Below, piece after piece: positions 48,095 to 57,999 of a DNA stretch of 64,000 nucleotides (positions are counted from its first letter, which is position 1; every line of letters starts with the position of its first letter). Both the position numbers and the translations under genes were made by a program. This DNA is from Gammaproteobacteria bacterium (GTDB lineage: Bacteria > Gemmatimonadota > Gemmatimonadetes > Longimicrobiales > Gaopeijiaceae). A model generated the notes under the pieces. That model searched no databases and was not told where the DNA came from. It worked only from the letters and a program-made list of their open reading frames with translations. The stretch is taken from positions 1-64,000 of the forward strand of contig JAPPHB010000080.1 of NCBI GenBank assembly GCA_028821195.1, written 5' to 3'.

Positions 48095-49275
48095 ATCCCG
48101 GCAAGGTCCCTCTCGCCTTCCTTGCGACGCTGTTGACCGCGGCCCCCCTCGCCGCACAGGACTCCGCCGCAGACTACATCGCCCTCATCGAGGGCGTTCA
48201 GAGCCCCAGCCGACAGGGGCTGGATGTCCTTACGCTGCCGGAGGTGATGGAGCGCTTCGGTGTCCCCGGAATGAGCGTCGCCGTCATCCGAGACTTCGAG
48301 GTGCACTGGGCGAAGGCGTATGGAGTCGCGGATGTGGTGACGGGCGCCCGGGTGGACACCGAAACCCTCTTCCAGGCCGCCTCCATCTCGAAGCCGGTGA
48401 CCGCCATGGCGGCGCTGAGCGCCGTCCAGGAGGGCCTGTTTTCGCTGGACGACGACATCAACTCGATCCTGCGTTCGTGGTCCCTCCCGGGCAGGGGCTT
48501 CACGGACGAGCAGCCCGTTACGCCGCGGCTGCTCTTCAGTCACACCGCCGGGCTGGGCGACGGGCACGGGTTCCCCGGCTACGCGCCGGACGCGCCCCGC
48601 CCCACCCCGGTGCAGATCTTCGAGGGACAGGCGCCCTCCAATGTGGGACCCGTCGAGCTGGTGCGGCCGCCCCTCACCGCCATGCACTACTCCGGCGGCG
48701 GCACCACCATCATGCAACTGGCCCTCGCCGATGCCCGCGGCGAACCCTTCCCCGACCTCATGCGCCGGACCGTCCTGGAACCGGCGGGCATGACGCGGAG
48801 CACGTTCGAGCATCCCCTTCCCGCAGCGCTCGACGCGAACGCCGCGCGCGGCCACCGGGGCGACGGGCTGCCCATGGGAGTCGAGAAGTGGCACGCGTAC
48901 GCCGCGCTGGCCGCGGCCGGGCTGTGGACCACGGCCACGGACCTTGCGCGCTTCGCGATCGAGGTGCAGGAGGCGGCCCGCGGCGACCCGGACCGGGCGC
49001 TGTCACGCGCGGGCGCGCAGGAAATGCTCAGCCCGGTGGGCGTGGGTTCGTATGCCGTCGGCTTCCACATCGAACAGCGCGGCCAGGGCTGGTACTTCAG
49101 CCACTCCGGAGGCAACTGGGGCTTCGTGTGCTACCTGACGGCCCACAAGGCCAAGGGGTACGGGGTAGTGGTCATGACCAACTCCTCCGGCGGAGGCGGC
49201 CTCTACCGCGAGGTGCTGGAGCGGGTCGAGCGGGCCTACGGCTGGGATTCCCTGGACAAGCCGGTGCTGCGGTAG
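48091..49275 (+). CDS. Class C beta-lactamase-fold serine hydrolase, secreted
   Basis: The 394-residue protein has a signal peptide (FLATLLTAAPLAAQ). The active-site SISK tetrad lies near residue 99 (QAASISKPVTAMAAL), the Tyr motif is in MHYSGGGTTIM near 199, and HSGGNWGFVCY near residue 338 is the equivalent of KTG. This is the fold of penicillin-binding protein-like esterases, D-aminopeptidases and carboxypeptidases; resistance is not implied. The ATG overlaps the EamA stop, after a strong AGGAGG site, so the two are likely coupled. Confidence 0.85.
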   Translation: MNPGKVPLAFLATLLTAAPLAAQDSAADYIALIEGVQSPSRQGLDVLTLPEVMERFGVPGMSVAVIRDFEVHWAKAYGVADVVTGARVDTETLFQAASISKPVTAMAALSAVQEGLFSLDDDINSILRSWSLPGRGFTDEQPVTPRLLFSHTAGLGDGHGFPGYAPDAPRPTPVQIFEGQAPSNVGPVELVRPPLTAMHYSGGGTTIMQLALADARGEPFPDLMRRTVLEPAGMTRSTFEHPLPAALDANAARGHRGDGLPMGVEKWHAYAALAAAGLWTTATDLARFAIEVQEAARGDPDRALSRAGAQEMLSPVGVGSYAVGFHIEQRGQGWYFSHSGGNWGFVCYLTAHKAKGYGVVVMTNSSGGGGLYREVLERVERAYGWDSLDKPVLR

Positions 49276-51283: not shown

Positions 51284-52696
51284 TCAGAGCGTCGCCCCCA
51301 GCACCGCGAAGCAGACGGCCGCCGCCCCCCCGGCCAGCAGCGCGTAGGGCAGCTGCGTGCGCACGTGGTCGATGTGATCGGTGGCGGCCGCCATGGACGA
51401 GATGATGGTGGTGTCGCTGATGGGCGAGGAGTGGTCGCCGAAGATGCCGCCGGAGAGGGCCGCCGCCACGAACGGGGCGAGCGGCATGCCCAGCGTCTCT
51501 GCCACCGGCACCGCGATGGGCAGCATGATGGCGAAGGTTCCCCAGCTCGAGCCGATCGAGAAGGCGATCCCGCCCGCGACCACGAAGACCAGGGGCAGGA
51601 AGAGCATCGGCGCGAGCACGCCCTCGGTGACCTGCGCCACGTACTCGCCGGCGCCCAGGGTGCGCGCCACCGACCCCAGCGCCAGCGCCAGGAGGAGGAT
51701 GAGCGCCAGCGGCATCAGCCCTCCGGCGCCCTTGAGCCCGGTGCGTGTGAGCTCGTCGAGGCTCGCGCCCCGCTGGCCGAGCAGCAGCAGCCACGCGGCA
51801 CCCAGGCCGGCCAGCACCGCCCACAGCACGCTTGTCGACCCTGAACCCTCGAGCATCGATCCGCCGCCGGTCACGTACAGGCCGAGCGGCATGGTCACCA
51901 CCATCACCGCGATCGGCACCAGCATGTTGCGCGCGCGCGGCGCGATGCGGCCCACGGGCGTGGGCGAGAGCACGGTCTCGTCCACCATCGGCTGGGCGTT
52001 GGGCCACAGCACCTGCCCCTCCGCCGCCCGCTTCTCGGCCCGCTTCATGGGACCGAGGTCGATCTTCCACAGGATCGACGCACCCGCGAGCAGGAAGGCG
52101 ATGAGGGCGTAGAAGTTCACCGGAATCGCGGCGATGAACACTCCGAGCGCATCCTCCACGCCCAGTTCGTTCAGGATCCCCAGGTTGAGGGCCCCCCAGG
52201 CGTTCAGTGGGATGAGAATGCAGATGGGCGCCGAGGTGGAGTCGACGATGTAGGCAAGCCGCTCGCGCGAGATGCGGAAGCGGTCGAAGAGGGGACGCGA
52301 CACCGCCCCCGCCACGAGCACGGTGATGTTCGACTCGATGAAGATCACGATGCCGATGATCCACGCCAGAAACTGGGCGCGGCGTCCATTGGTGACCCAG
52401 CGGTTGCCCTCGATCCAGCGCACGAACCCGCGCACGCCGCCCGCGGCTTCCAGCGTCGCGATCATCGCCCCGATCACCAGGGTGAACAGGATTACCTTTG
52501 CATTCCCGGGGTCGCCCAGCACCGCTACGGTCTGCTCGATGGCCGTGGCGAGGCCGGTGAGCGGGTTCCAGCCCTCGAGGATGGTCCAGCCGATCCAGAT
52601 GCCCGCGGCGAGCGACACGTAGACCTGGCGGCTCCAGATGGCCAGCACGATCGCGAGGACGGTGGGAAGGAGCGAAATCCAGGAGGGTTCGTTCAT
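51284..52696 (-). CDS. NhaC-like Na+/H+ antiporter family protein
   Basis: The 470-residue membrane protein has about 11-12 helices. Features of the NhaC family are LPTVLAIVLAIWSRQVYVSL at the N-terminus, VFIESNITVLVAGAVSRPLF near residue 115, STSAPICILIPLNAWG, and FSIGSSWGTFAIMLPIAVPV with SGGIFGDHSSPISDTTIISS near the C-terminus. It likely exchanges sodium for protons; malate/lactate or amino-acid exchange is a known variant. Its ATG overlaps the glycosylase stop. Confidence 0.85.
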   Translation of the reverse strand: MNEPSWISLLPTVLAIVLAIWSRQVYVSLAAGIWIGWTILEGWNPLTGLATAIEQTVAVLGDPGNAKVILFTLVIGAMIATLEAAGGVRGFVRWIEGNRWVTNGRRAQFLAWIIGIVIFIESNITVLVAGAVSRPLFDRFRISRERLAYIVDSTSAPICILIPLNAWGALNLGILNELGVEDALGVFIAAIPVNFYALIAFLLAGASILWKIDLGPMKRAEKRAAEGQVLWPNAQPMVDETVLSPTPVGRIAPRARNMLVPIAVMVVTMPLGLYVTGGGSMLEGSGSTSVLWAVLAGLGAAWLLLLGQRGASLDELTRTGLKGAGGLMPLALILLLALALGSVARTLGAGEYVAQVTEGVLAPMLFLPLVFVVAGGIAFSIGSSWGTFAIMLPIAVPVAETLGMPLAPFVAAALSGGIFGDHSSPISDTTIISSMAAATDHIDHVRTQLPYALLAGGAAAVCFAVLGATL

Positions 52697-53307
52697 CGGG
52701 TTCCGCCTGTGCGCCTGGAGACGTGAGGATTGCCGTGGAGGAAGAAACGCAGTTCGCGCTCGCGCGCCCGCGTCACGCCGATGCGCGGCGACCGCGCGAT
52801 GCTCTCTGCCGGAACCGGCTTCCGGGGAACGAGGCGGAGCGGCGCCCGGTCGAGCGTGTGCCCGTCGAGTTCGCCGGTGACGCCCAGCGCCTGGCAGAGG
52901 CGCGCCGGTCCGGAACACAGATCGCGGTGCCGGCCCCGCCGCGCCGCCATCGTGGCCTCACCCGTCACCGGCTCGAGCGCGCGCACCAGCACCGCGGCCG
53001 GAAAGTCCTCCCGGCCGGTCACGACGTTCAGGCACCAGTGCATGCCGTAGATGAGATAGACGTAGGCGATGCCGGGGGGACCGAACATGGAGGCGTTGCG
53101 GCGGGTGCGGCCGATGCGCTCGGCGGCGTGGGAGGCCGGGTCGTCCGGTCCGGTATAGGCCTCCACCTCCACGATGCGGCCCGATGTCGTCAGGCCGCCG
53201 ACGGTCGACTCCACCTCCCAGCCGAGCAGGCCGGGCGCCACCGCGCGCGCGCCACCGGAAAGGAGGCCGGCTAGCGCCCCGTTGACGGCAGTACCGGATG
53301 ACACCAC
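52693..53307 (-). CDS. 3-methyladenine DNA glycosylase (AAG/MPG family)
   Basis: The 204-residue enzyme removes alkylated purines from DNA to start base-excision repair. Family features are GRIVEVEAYTGPDDPASHAA near residue 43, with the catalytic Glu, NASMFGPPGIAYVYLIYGMH, LNVVTGREDFPAAVLVRALEP, and the CSGPARLCQALGVTGE turn. It is of normal length. It lies 22 bases downstream of the NYN-LOTUS gene and overlaps the antiporter start. Confidence 0.92.
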   Translation of the reverse strand: MVSSGTAVNGALAGLLSGGARAVAPGLLGWEVESTVGGLTTSGRIVEVEAYTGPDDPASHAAERIGRTRRNASMFGPPGIAYVYLIYGMHWCLNVVTGREDFPAAVLVRALEPVTGEATMAARRGRHRDLCSGPARLCQALGVTGELDGHTLDRAPLRLVPRKPVPAESIARSPRIGVTRARERELRFFLHGNPHVSRRTGGTR

Positions 53308-53329
53308 CCGCTCGACGGGGCGTGCCCGG

Positions 53330-55174
53330 TCAGGAAGACCCGCGCCGCCGTCCCAGACGGGTCCGGCGCGCCGTGGCGGTTGCCTGCCTGTCGGCCTTCG
53401 ATTCCGCCCTGGACCGGCGGGAGAAGTCGTCCTGCCAGGCTTCGGCGAGCTTGGCCACCCGATTGCGCGGCAGAACCCCGTTTACCTTGTCCGGGGAGTC
53501 GTGCAGCACATGGAACACCCGGTCGCCGAAGGCCTCGATGAGGCGTTCCGCGGTTTTCTCGCCCACGCCCCGGTAGCGGTTGGCCAGGTAGCGCTGCACC
53601 GCGCTCGCATCGGTGGGCAATCCGAGCCGGCCGGGATCAAACGCGGGTTTCGTGTCCGCACGCCCGTCCTCGCCGGGGCGCTCATCCCTGTCGCGCTCGC
53701 GGGCCCGCTGGCTCTGGCGCCACATGCGCTGACGGGGCGAACGCGGTGTGCGGCGCCCTCCCTTCTTCGCCGAGGGCGATGCCGTCGGCTCCGCCGACTC
53801 TGCAGAGGCGGCCTCATCCACCGCCGCAGACGCGGCATCCCCTTCCCCCCCTTCGGGGGCCGCGCGCGGCGTACCGGCCGCAGCCGTTGGCGACGCGCCG
53901 GATGCCGCTCCATCTGCGCCGGCGGGCGTTCCGCCCTCCTCCCGCGATCCCGCGGAGGCAGCGTCGCCCTTGCCCGCCCGGTGCGACCGCGGAAGCCGCA
54001 CGACGAAGTTGCCCGCTTCGTTCCGGCGGATGCGCACGACGTCGTGCTCGTGGGCCTGCGTGAGGAACTTGCTGAACTTGCTGAACCCGAGCCCGGTCTC
54101 ATCGAAGTTCCGGTCGAGATCCAGCATGCGGCGCTTCACGTCCGAATCCCGCGTCCAGCTGTTGTCGGGGCTGATTTCCGCCAGCCCCCGGCGCAGGAGT
54201 TCGTACGCGTCGGCCAGCGGGTCCGCGCCCGTTGTCCCGTTCTCGGACGCGCCCTCCCGGCGGGGCTCCCTCTTCGGGGATTCCGCTTCGCCGGGGGCTG
54301 CAGCCGCCCGCCCGCGTTCCGAACCACCGGGCCCGCCCGCCCGGCTGCGCCCGCCCGGTTGTTGAGGGGTGCGGCTGGCTGCGGCATCTCGCTGACGCCC
54401 CCCCGCGGCAAGTATCTCGTGCTGTCCGTTCTCCAGCTTGCGCAGGCGCACGAGGCCGCGGGCGGCAGCTTCGGCAAGGAATCTGCTGAACTTGCTGAAC
54501 CCGTGCCTGGATTCCTCGAAGCCCGGGCTCATCTCCAGCATCACCTGCTTGAGCCTGTCCGAGCGCATCACGTCCCCGCGCTCGATCATCTTCTTCGATG
54601 CCTCACTGACGAGATGCCAGGGGTCCACCGACTTGCCCTTGTCCCCCACGGAGGCCTTCTGGAGACCGGCGATGGACGAGTACGAGTAGTATTCGTCGCA
54701 GTTCTGGACCAGGATGTCGGAACTCGATTCCTGGATCCCGACCCCGATCACATACTTCCCGTACTCCTTGAGCTTCAGGACCAGACTGGAAAAGTCGCTG
54801 TCGCCCGTGAGGAGAATGTAGGTTCCGATTTCCGGACGAATGAAGACCAGCTCCATGCCGTCAATGGCCATGCGGATATCGGTGGCGTTCTTCTTCGAAC
54901 TGCCGTAGGCGGGAGCGAAGATCAGGTCGACCGACGCCTCCGAGAGCGGCACGATGTACTGGGGATACCGCCGCCAGTCGGCATACGCCCGCTGGACGGT
55001 GACCTTGCCCTTGATGATGTCGGAGTTGAGGAGCGTCTTGATCTCTTTGGAAAGATCGCTCCGGATGCCCATCGTCACGTTGTCGAAGTCGATGAGCAGC
55101 GCCGCGTTGGGCGCCGAGGACAGGATCGGGCCCGCCCCTTCGACATGCGGGGCGCGCGTGAAGTGGTTGATCAT
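53330..55174 (-). CDS. NYN nuclease-fold protein with two OST-HTH/LOTUS domains and C-terminal HhH
   Basis: The 614-residue protein has a NYN (PIN-like) domain at about residues 22-170, with acidic residues typical of the active site: Asp29 and Asp31 in LIDFDNV, Asp99 in ATDIRM, and Asp125/Asp127 in LTGDSDFSSL. Two OST-HTH (LOTUS) domains follow at about 184-256 and 319-395, each with the same GFSKFSRFL or GFSKFSKFL block. Long, low-complexity linkers separate them. Residues about 525-580 form a helix-hairpin-helix pair (YRGVGEKTAERLIEAFGDRV). NYN domains are predicted or shown RNases, LOTUS domains bind RNA or G-quadruplexes, and HhH binds DNA non-specifically. The order is like animal MARF1. 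The role is unknown. Confidence 0.85.
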   Translation of the reverse strand: MINHFTRAPHVEGAGPILSSAPNAALLIDFDNVTMGIRSDLSKEIKTLLNSDIIKGKVTVQRAYADWRRYPQYIVPLSEASVDLIFAPAYGSSKKNATDIRMAIDGMELVFIRPEIGTYILLTGDSDFSSLVLKLKEYGKYVIGVGIQESSSDILVQNCDEYYSYSSIAGLQKASVGDKGKSVDPWHLVSEASKKMIERGDVMRSDRLKQVMLEMSPGFEESRHGFSKFSRFLAEAAARGLVRLRKLENGQHEILAAGGRQRDAAASRTPQQPGGRSRAGGPGGSERGRAAAAPGEAESPKREPRREGASENGTTGADPLADAYELLRRGLAEISPDNSWTRDSDVKRRMLDLDRNFDETGLGFSKFSKFLTQAHEHDVVRIRRNEAGNFVVRLPRSHRAGKGDAASAGSREEGGTPAGADGAASGASPTAAAGTPRAAPEGGEGDAASAAVDEAASAESAEPTASPSAKKGGRRTPRSPRQRMWRQSQRARERDRDERPGEDGRADTKPAFDPGRLGLPTDASAVQRYLANRYRGVGEKTAERLIEAFGDRVFHVLHDSPDKVNGVLPRNRVAKLAEAWQDDFSRRSRAESKADRQATATARRTRLGRRRGSS

Positions 55175-55288: not shown

Positions 55289-56884
55289 CTAGCCGTGCCG
55301 GCGCAGGACCTCGGCCCGCAACACGCGAGCCAGTTCTCCGCGTCCGACCTTCCCGGCTGCCGTCGCCGGGAACTCGTCAAAAAAGTGGATCCGATCGGGC
55401 ACCTTGTAGGTGGCCAGCGAGGGGCGGCACCACGCTCTCAACTCCTCCGCCGAGACCATGGCCCCTTCGATCATGTGCACGCAGGCGCACACGGCCTCGC
55501 CCAGGAGTTCGTCGGGCAGACCCACCACTACTACATCCCGTACCGCCGGGTGGGTCGCGATTCTGCTTTCGACTTCCCGGGGATACACATCGAACCCAGC
55601 CTTAATGATAACATCGCCCTGGCGACCTACCAAATGCAGGTAGCCGTCCTCGTCCACGATGCCCATGTCGCCGGTGTGAAGGAACCGGTCGGCGTCGAAG
55701 TGCCGCCGGGTATTGTCGGGCTGCCGGTGGTAGCCGCGCATCACGCCGGGGCCGCGAACCCGGATCTCCCCCAGGCTCTCGACCGGGAGCACGGACCCGT
55801 CGCCGTCGCACACGCGCACCGAGGCATCGGGCAGCGGCCGTCCCACCGTGAAGCGCTGCTTCTCGGGAGGATCTTCGGCGCGAGTCATGGACAGGGTGGA
55901 CCCTGCCTCGGTGAGTGAATAGGCCACCTGCAGGTTGGGGCAAAGCTCCTCGCGCACATGGCGCAGCGCGGGATCCGCGATGGGGCCCCCGGTGACGATG
56001 CCGCAGCGCAGGCTGGAGAGGTCGCGCGGCATGCGCCGCTGCTCGTACAGCTCCGTCAGAAAGTGCGTGGGCACCCCGTAGTGCACCGTGACGCCGTGCC
56101 GTTCGATCAGATCCAGCGCCTCATGGCCGTCGAAGCTCTCCTGCAGCACGATCGACGCACCCGTGCTCGCGGTGCCGAGGATGGCGGGACCCAGCGCAAA
56201 GGCGTGAAAGATGTCGCTGGGCCCGATGACGCGGTCCGTGGAGGTCACCCCCAGCTCCGCCACGGTCTGGCGCGCAGGCACCACCAGGTTGCCATGGGTC
56301 AGCTCCACGCCTTTCGGCTTCCCGGTGGTTCCGGCGGTGTAGAGAATCGCGAAGAGGTCGTCGGAGGCGACGTCCGGGCGCGGACATTCCTTTCCCCGTC
56401 CCGCCGAGACCAGGTCTTCAAACTGGTAGATCTGGTCGTCGTACCAGAGGTCCTCTTCGCCGACGGTGATCACGTAGCCCAGTTCCGGCAGATCCTCCAG
56501 CACGTCCTCGGCGAACTGCAGGTAGTCGATCCCCTCGAACATCTCGGGCGTCACCGCGGCCGCGGCCTGCGAGTGGCGGAGGCGGTAGCGCAGCTCCAGC
56601 GGCGGGAGGCGGGGATTCAGGGGCACCACGACGATCCCCAGCCTGGCCGCCGCGAAAACCGCCACGATGAACTCGGCGCAGCCGGGCAGCAGGATCGCGA
56701 GACGCTCGCCCCGCTCGATGCCCAGGTGGTGCAGGGATGCCGCGAGGTCGCGGGCCTGGCTCTCCACCTGTCCGTAGGTCATCATGCCGTCCCCGGAAAG
56801 CAGAAACGGCCGGCCCGGAGCGGCGGCGGCCGCTGCCAGCACATCGGCGGCGGTGGAGGGCGACGGACCTTGCGCAGAACTCAT
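55289..56884 (-). CDS. AMP-dependent acyl-CoA ligase/synthetase
   Basis: The 531-residue enzyme of the ANL superfamily has [20 protein letters not shown] near residue 180, SYSVLTEAG-like ligand site AYSLTEAGSTLSM near 325, FLHTGDMGIVDEDGYLHLVG, GFDVYPREVESRIATHPAVR, and the catalytic Lys in TAAGKVGRGELAR near the end. The pattern is of fatty- or aromatic-acid CoA ligases, but the acid is not predictable. Its ATG overlaps the aroB stop. Confidence 0.85.
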   Translation of the reverse strand: MSSAQGPSPSTAADVLAAAAAAPGRPFLLSGDGMMTYGQVESQARDLAASLHHLGIERGERLAILLPGCAEFIVAVFAAARLGIVVVPLNPRLPPLELRYRLRHSQAAAAVTPEMFEGIDYLQFAEDVLEDLPELGYVITVGEEDLWYDDQIYQFEDLVSAGRGKECPRPDVASDDLFAILYTAGTTGKPKGVELTHGNLVVPARQTVAELGVTSTDRVIGPSDIFHAFALGPAILGTASTGASIVLQESFDGHEALDLIERHGVTVHYGVPTHFLTELYEQRRMPRDLSSLRCGIVTGGPIADPALRHVREELCPNLQVAYSLTEAGSTLSMTRAEDPPEKQRFTVGRPLPDASVRVCDGDGSVLPVESLGEIRVRGPGVMRGYHRQPDNTRRHFDADRFLHTGDMGIVDEDGYLHLVGRQGDVIIKAGFDVYPREVESRIATHPAVRDVVVVGLPDELLGEAVCACVHMIEGAMVSAEELRAWCRPSLATYKVPDRIHFFDEFPATAAGKVGRGELARVLRAEVLRRHG

Positions 56885-57999
56885 CCCGCCTCGCCAAGTA
56901 CGGCCAGCACGACTTCGTCGGGCACGGCGTGCGTCCATCCGCCCGTCCCGTCCACTCGTCCGATGCGGTCCAGGAGGACGTAGGCGACGGACCCGGCGCG
57001 CATCTTCTTGTCGGTGCGCGTGCGCGCCAGCACGACGGCGGCATCGGTGCCCTGGGGAAGAACCGTGGGGAGGCCGCAGGCGTCGAGCGCCGCGCGCAGC
57101 CGGTCGGCGGTACCCGGCGCGGTCTGCCCGATGCGCCCGCCCGCGCGCGCCTCCAGAATCATGCCGAGCGAGACGGCGGAACCGTGCGGGAGGGTGTAGC
57201 TCGATTCCGCCTCGAGCGCGTGCCCGAGGGTGTGCCCGAAGTTGAGCAGCTGCCTGAGCCCCCCTTCCCGTTCGTCGGCGCTGACGACACGGGCCTTCAG
57301 TTCCACCGACCGGCGCACCACCGCTTCCATGGCGGCGCCGTCTCCCGCCAGCACCCCCGCGGCGGAGCGCGCGACCTCCTCAAAGTAGTCCTCGTCGAGG
57401 ATCGCCCCGTGCTTGACCGCCTCGGCGAGCCCCTGGGCGCGCTCCGCCGCAGGCAGCGTGCCCAAGTAGTCGGGATCGGCGACCACCACGCGCGGCGGGT
57501 GAAAGGCGCCGATCAGGTTCTTGCCGGCTCGCGTGTCCACCCCTGTCTTCCCTCCCACCGAGGCGTCCACCATGGCGACCAGGCTGGTCGGCACCTGCAC
57601 CACCGGGATGCCTCGCAGCAGGGTTGCGGCCACGAAGCCGGCGAGGTCGCCGGTCACCCCGCCGCCGAGCGCGACCACGCACCCGTCGCGACCGAATCCG
57701 GCGGCCAGCAACTCGTCGGAGAGGCGCGACCAGCTCCGGCGGATCTTGTTCTCCTCCCCCGCGGGAAAGGTGAACAGTTCCGCCCGCGCCCCGCCCGCGG
57801 CCAATCCGCCCAGCAGTGCGTCGCCGTGCAGACGGGCGACGTGGGAGTCGGCGATGACGGCGTAGCGGTGGGCGGGCGCGTACTCGGCGAGCAGCTCCGC
57901 CATCGCATGGCGCAGGCCGCGGGACACGAGCACGGGATAACCGCGCCCCCCCTTCGTGCTCACATGCACGGCGTGCGCCGCGGACGCGCGCGAACTCAT
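56881..57999 (-). CDS. aroB: 3-dehydroquinate synthase
   Basis: The 372-residue enzyme converts DAHP to 3-dehydroquinate in the shikimate pathway. Motifs are VVALGGGVTGDLAGFVAATL for NAD binding near residue 105, PTSLVAMVDASVGGKTGVD, KNLIGAFHPPRVVVADPDYL, EAVKHGAILDEDYFE, and LLNFGHTLGHALEAE with zinc-binding His residues. The start at 57999 overlaps the stop of the upstream metalloprotease gene; the frame opens further up inside that gene but is not used. Confidence 0.96.
   Translation of the reverse strand: MSSRASAAHAVHVSTKGGRGYPVLVSRGLRHAMAELLAEYAPAHRYAVIADSHVARLHGDALLGGLAAGGARAELFTFPAGEENKIRRSWSRLSDELLAAGFGRDGCVVALGGGVTGDLAGFVAATLLRGIPVVQVPTSLVAMVDASVGGKTGVDTRAGKNLIGAFHPPRVVVADPDYLGTLPAAERAQGLAEAVKHGAILDEDYFEEVARSAAGVLAGDGAAMEAVVRRSVELKARVVSADEREGGLRQLLNFGHTLGHALEAESSYTLPHGSAVSLGMILEARAGGRIGQTAPGTADRLRAALDACGLPTVLPQGTDAAVVLARTRTDKKMRAGSVAYVLLDRIGRVDGTGGWTHAVPDEVVLAVLGEAG

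Follow-up and report, generated by a model that had tools for sequence, protein, structure and literature searches.

In a window of 64,000 nucleotides from a bacterium of the Gemmatimonadota (assembly GCA_028821195.1, contig JAPPHB010000080.1, positions 1 to 64,000; "the window" means this whole stretch, part of a 145-kb contig of a 4.2-Mb genome), we identified a gene for a protein that joins an NYN nuclease domain to two OST-HTH (LOTUS) domains and a helix-hairpin-helix (HhH) segment. The next gene downstream encodes a methylpurine DNA glycosylase (MPG). The NYN-OST protein is a core gene product of this Gemmatimonadota class, a large group from soil and water, since a profile of NYN and the first OST-HTH copy (OST1; alignment A2, 23 rows) matched 232 of 243 class genomes and residues 1 to 253 keep 66 to 78% identity to the window across seven families. 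Its linkage to MPG is well supported: among the 195 genomes that have both genes, MPG lies directly downstream on the same strand in 175. Such near-constant pairing suggests that they act jointly or are expressed together. We tentatively favor the reading, somewhat short of probable, that the protein is a core RNase co-expressed with MPG, base damage being met on both RNA and DNA; the substrate and mechanism are those that we infer below. The window's own family is called f1, and the other families named here are called f2 to f9.

Pfam placed the NYN domain (PF01936) at residues 24 to 164 (E = 6.5e-24) and found OST-HTH (PF12872) in two stretches, the best at residues 324 to 391 (E = 6.6e-9). 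Pfam detects the first OST copy weakly, and the window's own genome gave one OST match at E ≤ 0.001. OST1 aligns with the second copy (OST2; 41% over 49 residues, E = 9e-12), and profiles built from relatives detected both in the 97%-identical locus L023 (E = 2e-41 and 9e-36). Six aspartates of the NYN domain (D29, D31, D99, D125, D127, and D153) are invariant in 37 of 37 sequences from seven families; which of the conserved acidic residues of this PIN-like fold are catalytic is our assumption. The HhH stayed below the Pfam cut-off (PF14520, E = 0.14). Residues 519 to 583 matched the HhH segment of TIGR01448, the RecD2 model (E = 3.1e-7; profile positions 68 to 135 of 713, far under the whole-protein cut-off), and the segment, which also weakly resembles XPF and topoisomerase V, occurs in all 35 f1 relatives of alignment A1. 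As the RecD2 likeness is confined to those profile positions and Pfam found no helicase domain, the protein has no superfamily 1B helicase motor and is not a RecD2 helicase. Thus, the layout given in a preliminary description of this locus (NYN, two LOTUS domains, and HhH, with the likely catalytic aspartates kept) was borne out.

Of two structure models, that of NYN plus OST1 had a single PDB match at E ≤ 0.001, namely 2qip (E = 3.3e-5; TM 0.58 by target, with the NYN part weakly modeled). This entry is VPA0982 of Vibrio parahaemolyticus, a 165-residue chain to which the NYN part alone aligns and which is also the best solved NYN match by sequence (E = 0.0015). The model of the whole protein had no fold match at E ≤ 0.001; its first row was the CRISPR protein Csa3, and the LOTUS domain of TDRD7 (3rco) came tenth (E = 0.035, probability 1.00, TM 0.82 by target). 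The N-terminal NYN domain, OST-HTH copies C-terminal to it, and conserved acidic residues are those of the bacterial NYN (LK-nuclease)/OST-HTH family. We conclude from sequence that the protein is a member of this family with intact acidic residues and is a predicted RNase.

The downstream gene has a Pur_DNA_glyco domain (PF02245, E = 2.3e-61), and residues 35 to 197 of its product align with human AAG (E = 4.9e-30). Residues E49, Y51, H60, Y82, and N94 are conserved in 95% or more of 62 rows; aligned to human AAG, they correspond to what we take to be its catalytic residues (E125, Y127, H136, Y159, and N169). MPG removes alkylated and deaminated purines. The enzyme here is bacterial and resembles human AAG/MPG in sequence. 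MPG was found in 199 of 249 sampled phylum genomes, with one match each (197 above the cut-off), and copies outside the genus show 42 to 66% identity to the window in local tblastn, with one partial copy at 80%.

We then looked at how closely the two genes are linked. In the 175 genomes with adjacent genes, MPG lies 653 to 2496 bases after the OST1 match, which, in the loci read, places it immediately behind the remainder of the NYN gene. In 19 of the 195 genomes, the two genes are on different contigs, and in 18 of these 19 the two matches lie at contig ends that face each other. In all 11 facing-end cases inspected, the contig stops before the NYN frame does. Thirteen MPG-side contigs were inspected: 9 carry an OST2 or HhH piece of the NYN gene upstream of MPG, and the other 4 are too short there (2 to 463 bases). 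The one same-contig exception, G157, has a run of N inside the gene, with OST1-OST2-HhH adjoining MPG. We concluded that 19 of the 20 non-adjacent genomes look like assembly breaks. Four MPG-positive genomes without an NYN match (G133, G142, G206, and G244) stand outside the 195. One of them, G244, has the HhH end of an NYN gene at a contig start, beside MPG; in G142, MPG is 519 bases from the contig start, with no OST2 or HhH piece there. In 19 of 31 loci outside f1, the possible MPG start closest to the NYN stop overlaps that stop by 4 bases, and 11 of those 19 offer no other possible start, a sign of translational coupling. These gap sizes use the possible start nearest the NYN stop, which favors small gaps.

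Several observations weigh against the reading that we favor. Thirty-seven genomes have NYN but no MPG. Among the 175 adjacent pairs, MPG is partial or interrupted in three (G098, G193, and G252), beside an intact NYN frame. Two f8 genomes, G133 and G206, have MPG without NYN. In G013, the 3.3 kb after a complete NYN gene contain no MPG. There, MPG lies on another contig, and the 3.8 kb upstream of it lack OST2 and HhH; this genome may be a true exception in which the genes are unlinked. The 4-base overlap occurs in none of 30 f1 loci, where the nearest starts fall at -88 to +128. Neither structure model is strong in the NYN part. Because the genomes are related by descent, the 175 adjacencies are not independent events; other genes around the locus also keep their order within f4 and f5. 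Since NYN is retained without MPG and MPG has decayed beside intact NYN, NYN does not need MPG, and the 37 genomes that lack MPG indicate that NYN has a role of its own. Dependence is therefore one-sided, and the two f8 genomes are the only clear cases of MPG without NYN. As a separate observation, in the three loci with damaged MPG (G098 being locus L125), it is the glycosylase that decays first.

Because order is conserved inside f4 and f5, we tested the linkage on the split between f1, f2, f3, f7, and f9 on one side and f4 and f5 on the other, comparing neighbors in 79 loci (L039, without the NYN part, was dropped). A block of neighbors around the NYN gene is conserved in f1. The genes for 3-dehydroquinate synthase (aroB), the NhaC-type antiporter, and electron transfer flavoprotein (ETF) had no match in the 26 f4/f5 loci read. 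An acyl-CoA ligase-like gene adjoins NYN in most f1, f2, f3, f7, and f9 loci read and in 7 of the 26 f4/f5 loci (with a fragment in L121). As a control, we searched for aroB, which is two genes from NYN in the window, and found it in 61 of 61 genomes. It is near NYN in 16 of 17 f1, f2, f3, and f7 genomes. In all 33 f4/f5 genomes where NYN could be placed, it is 57 to 135 kb away (15 genomes) or on another contig (18 genomes). Of the same 33 genomes, 30 have MPG next to NYN (as a remnant in one of them), 1 has it on another contig, and 2 lack it. In two f6 genomes, neither aroB nor MPG shares a contig with NYN; three f4/f5 genomes and six outside the class, without an NYN place, were set aside. 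Co-location of the glycosylase in relatives, the lack of which the preliminary description had named as a refutation, thus held, and the aroB control did not stay in place in f4/f5.

The HhH is present in every complete f1, f2, f3, f7, and f9 locus read. It is missing from all 26 f4/f5 loci read, where the tails differ and are often basic. MPG is nevertheless in place in 19 of these 26 HhH-less loci; of the other 7, six come from genomes without any MPG match (among them L124, a locus that stops 224 bases past NYN), and L125 has only an MPG remnant in place. OST2 is present in all families read, with weak matches in f4/f5 and in L030, an f1 locus. Since the HhH varies by family and MPG stays, the class-wide unit is NYN-OST-OST plus MPG, and the HhH and the antiporter are additions. 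The HhH of the preliminary description is therefore real in the window and in f1, but we rejected it as the reason for the MPG link. We likewise rejected the antiporter as part of the unit: it adjoins only in f1 and f7 among the loci read, so that of the operon first described only the glycosylase link holds across the class.

These results bear on whether the protein is a repair nuclease directed at DNA or R-loops. NYN, of the flap-nuclease superfamily, would then cut DNA or RNA-DNA hybrids at abasic sites made by MPG, with the HhH as a DNA grip. Such a role would suit the MPG link and the likeness of the HhH to RecD2 and, weakly, to XPF and topoisomerase V. However, the HhH is absent throughout the f4/f5 loci read, LOTUS domains are discussed as RNA binders in the literature that we could access, and the two f8 genomes carry MPG with no NYN. 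We consider this role unlikely.

In the reading that we favor, a core RNase co-expressed with MPG, the NYN-LOTUS enzyme would be an endoribonuclease that holds on to structured or damaged RNA with its LOTUS domains. The HhH, or a basic Lys/Ala-rich tail in some other families, would add a general nucleic-acid grip. With the two genes co-expressed, base damage (alkylation and deamination) would be answered on both nucleic acids: MPG would take damaged bases out of DNA, and the NYN-LOTUS enzyme would cut damaged transcripts. Accessible text on related proteins describes the human MARF1 NYN domain as an endoribonuclease on single-stranded RNA (PMC6294520) and cites a LOTUS domain of DNE1 as a binder of G-quadruplex RNA (PMC9181182, citing Ding 2020). 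A bolder version would make the pair a bacterial pathway for RNA base excision and incision. Here, MPG would act on RNA, either free or within R-loops, and strip it of alkylated or deaminated bases; the NYN nuclease, guided by its LOTUS domains, would cut the abasic RNA and clear it. According to the part of a review available to us, human MPG makes abasic sites in the RNA of RNA-DNA hybrids, which APE1 then cuts (PMC10281472). If true, the pair would do in bacteria what MPG and APE1 are reported to do with abasic RNA in human R-loops; we hold this version to be very doubtful.

A serious possibility is that the NYN-LOTUS protein is a housekeeping RNase of general RNA processing or decay, with MPG merely carried in the operon and linked to it by co-expression only. 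NYN is indeed wider spread and better conserved than MPG, and 37 genomes have it without MPG. In the same vein, the main text of a 2010 survey by Anantharaman, Zhang, and Aravind (PMC2848206) reports no conserved neighborhoods with known RNA-processing systems for the bacterial family and proposes a standalone RNA-degradation enzyme. The behavior of MPG argues against a passenger: none of aroB, NhaC, and ETF is at the locus in the 26 f4/f5 loci read, whereas MPG stays wherever both genes exist, save perhaps in G013 and assembly breaks apart.

The distribution of the gene bears on a further alternative. Across the phylum, the NYN-OST1 profile matched 232 of the 249 genomes, none of the 6 outside the class and neither f8 genome. 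OST-HTH matches were found in 40 of 48 same-family genomes, own included; 40 loci were taken from the 39 others, and alignment A1 excludes the 5 of these that are truncated. In a scan of genome contigs for relatives, 76 of the best 80 of 391 loci are titled Gemmatimonadota or a subgroup. An anti-phage defense or toxin-like nuclease would be suggested by the presence on mobile DNA of relatives of the NYN part, some of which include OST1 (165 plasmid and 8 phage records, each below 60% identity and with less than 80% of the query covered), and by a match to PHROG family 37744 (E = 1.4e-12). Against this stand the lack of a PADLOC match (0 families at E ≤ 1), the near-universal presence and fixed context in the class, unlike those of patchy defense genes, and the lack of a relative in one scan of viral contigs. 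A defense role is thus highly improbable. In the two plasmid relatives inspected, of 165 records, no annotated MPG lies beside the gene. One plasmid locus, L213 (Caballeronia sp. Lep1P3 plasmid p2), has an NYN-domain gene near plasmid copies of rplI, rpsR, and rpsF.

Other features of the family were noted along the way. Three metagenome-assembled genomes titled Gammaproteobacteria (L133, L134, and L144) have NYN-OST regions 100%, 100%, and 78% identical to the window and are probably mislabeled Gemmatimonadota. A third OST copy in some f3 genomes was rejected, as the extra matches are OST1 and OST2 each caught by the other's profile. After OST2, many loci have a variable disordered linker with a short recurring motif, PPPxLxxGQ (PPxLLxVGVV in f5), perhaps a docking site for a partner; this pattern finds none in the window's own protein. 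The idea that the motif docks MPG is unsupported, since it is present also in loci without MPG.

We compared the protein with known systems. Bacterial LK-nuclease (DUF88/NYN) plus OST-HTH proteins have the same basic layout and, with a single or duplicated OST-HTH, have been known since the 2010 survey (PMC2848206). Unlike that family as described there, the proteins studied here have a RecD2-like HhH (in f1, f2, f3, f7, and f9) and a conserved partner gene, MPG; the main text of the survey does not contain the words helix-hairpin-helix, RecD, or glycosylase. Plant MNU1/2 have NYN and two LOTUS domains, as here, according to the accessible part of PMC9181182. Plant DNE1 also combines NYN and LOTUS, whereas the present protein is bacterial and adjoins a glycosylase gene. 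Animal MARF1 has NYN and LOTUS in common with it, and the preliminary description had pointed out the likeness, calling MARF1 an RNA-silencing nuclease. MARF1, however, is described with eight LOTUS copies (PMC6294520, in the text available) against two here. The 614-residue protein has no RRM match at E ≤ 1, is bacterial, and lies beside a glycosylase gene. Given the missing RRM, the two LOTUS copies, and a bacterial family with its own simple layout, described in 2010, we rejected MARF1-like silencing as a literal reading. In the literature searched, largely outside subscription journals, we found in print neither the HhH fusion, the near-universality in a class, nor the MPG linkage. The search also gave no study of what bacterial NYN-LOTUS proteins do and no paper on a glycosylase together with an NYN domain. 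Hence, what is new is the genomic context (MPG linkage, near-universality, and HhH fusion); the NYN plus OST-HTH layout itself is known.

The features of the locus are collected in the table. MPG begins, with a GTG at 53307, 22 bases after the NYN stop, and the antiporter (PF03553, E = 8.3e-53) follows with an ATG that overlaps the MPG stop as ATGA, both spacings as in the preliminary description; the likely start of the antiporter gene is hence 52696, versus 52918 in the mechanical list of open reading frames. Upstream of the NYN gene in the window are the acyl-CoA ligase-like gene, aroB, and a metallopeptidase-like gene, and on the antiporter side are the ETF beta and alpha genes. Beyond the ETF genes, at 48130 to 49275 on the plus strand, lies a serine hydrolase gene, by eye of the beta-lactamase/penicillin-binding protein-like kind, which was matched in 3 of 40 f1 loci. 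Elsewhere in the same genome (L002, contig C133, 1408 to 2103, plus strand) is a second, stand-alone NYN protein adjoining an open reading frame that by eye resembles a DNA N6-methylase (NPPY motif).

Table. Features of the NYN-MPG locus, in coordinates of the window
Feature	Coordinates	Strand	Basis or remark
NYN-OST-OST-HhH protein, 614 aa (amino acids)	53330..55174	-	Open reading frame; Pfam
NYN (LK-nuclease) domain	54683..55105	-	Pfam; closest solved relative 2qip, by sequence and fold
OST-HTH/LOTUS 1, approximately residues 182-256	54407..54631	-	Self-alignment with OST2; relatives' profiles
OST-HTH/LOTUS 2, approximately residues 318-396	53987..54223	-	Pfam; relatives' profiles; LOTUS among fold matches
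RecD2-like HhH, approximately residues 513-590	53405..53638	-	Part of TIGR01448, E = 3.1e-7; relatives
Methylpurine (3-methyladenine) DNA glycosylase, MPG	52693..53307	-	GTG start; PF02245
NhaC-type Na+/H+ antiporter	51284..52696	-	PF03553; ATGA overlap with MPG; lineage-specific neighbor
AMP-forming acyl-CoA ligase-like gene, upstream of NYN gene	55289..56938	-	Homology; locus comparison

Bacterial NYN-LOTUS proteins were described in the main text of the 2010 survey as predicted RNases without known partners (PMC2848206). That a near-universal NYN-LOTUS gene has stayed beside the gene of a DNA-base glycosylase while the class diverged gives a concrete lead to a pathway. The pairing makes the function of a bacterial LOTUS nuclease testable by damage assays, and it may link RNA turnover with the repair of base damage.

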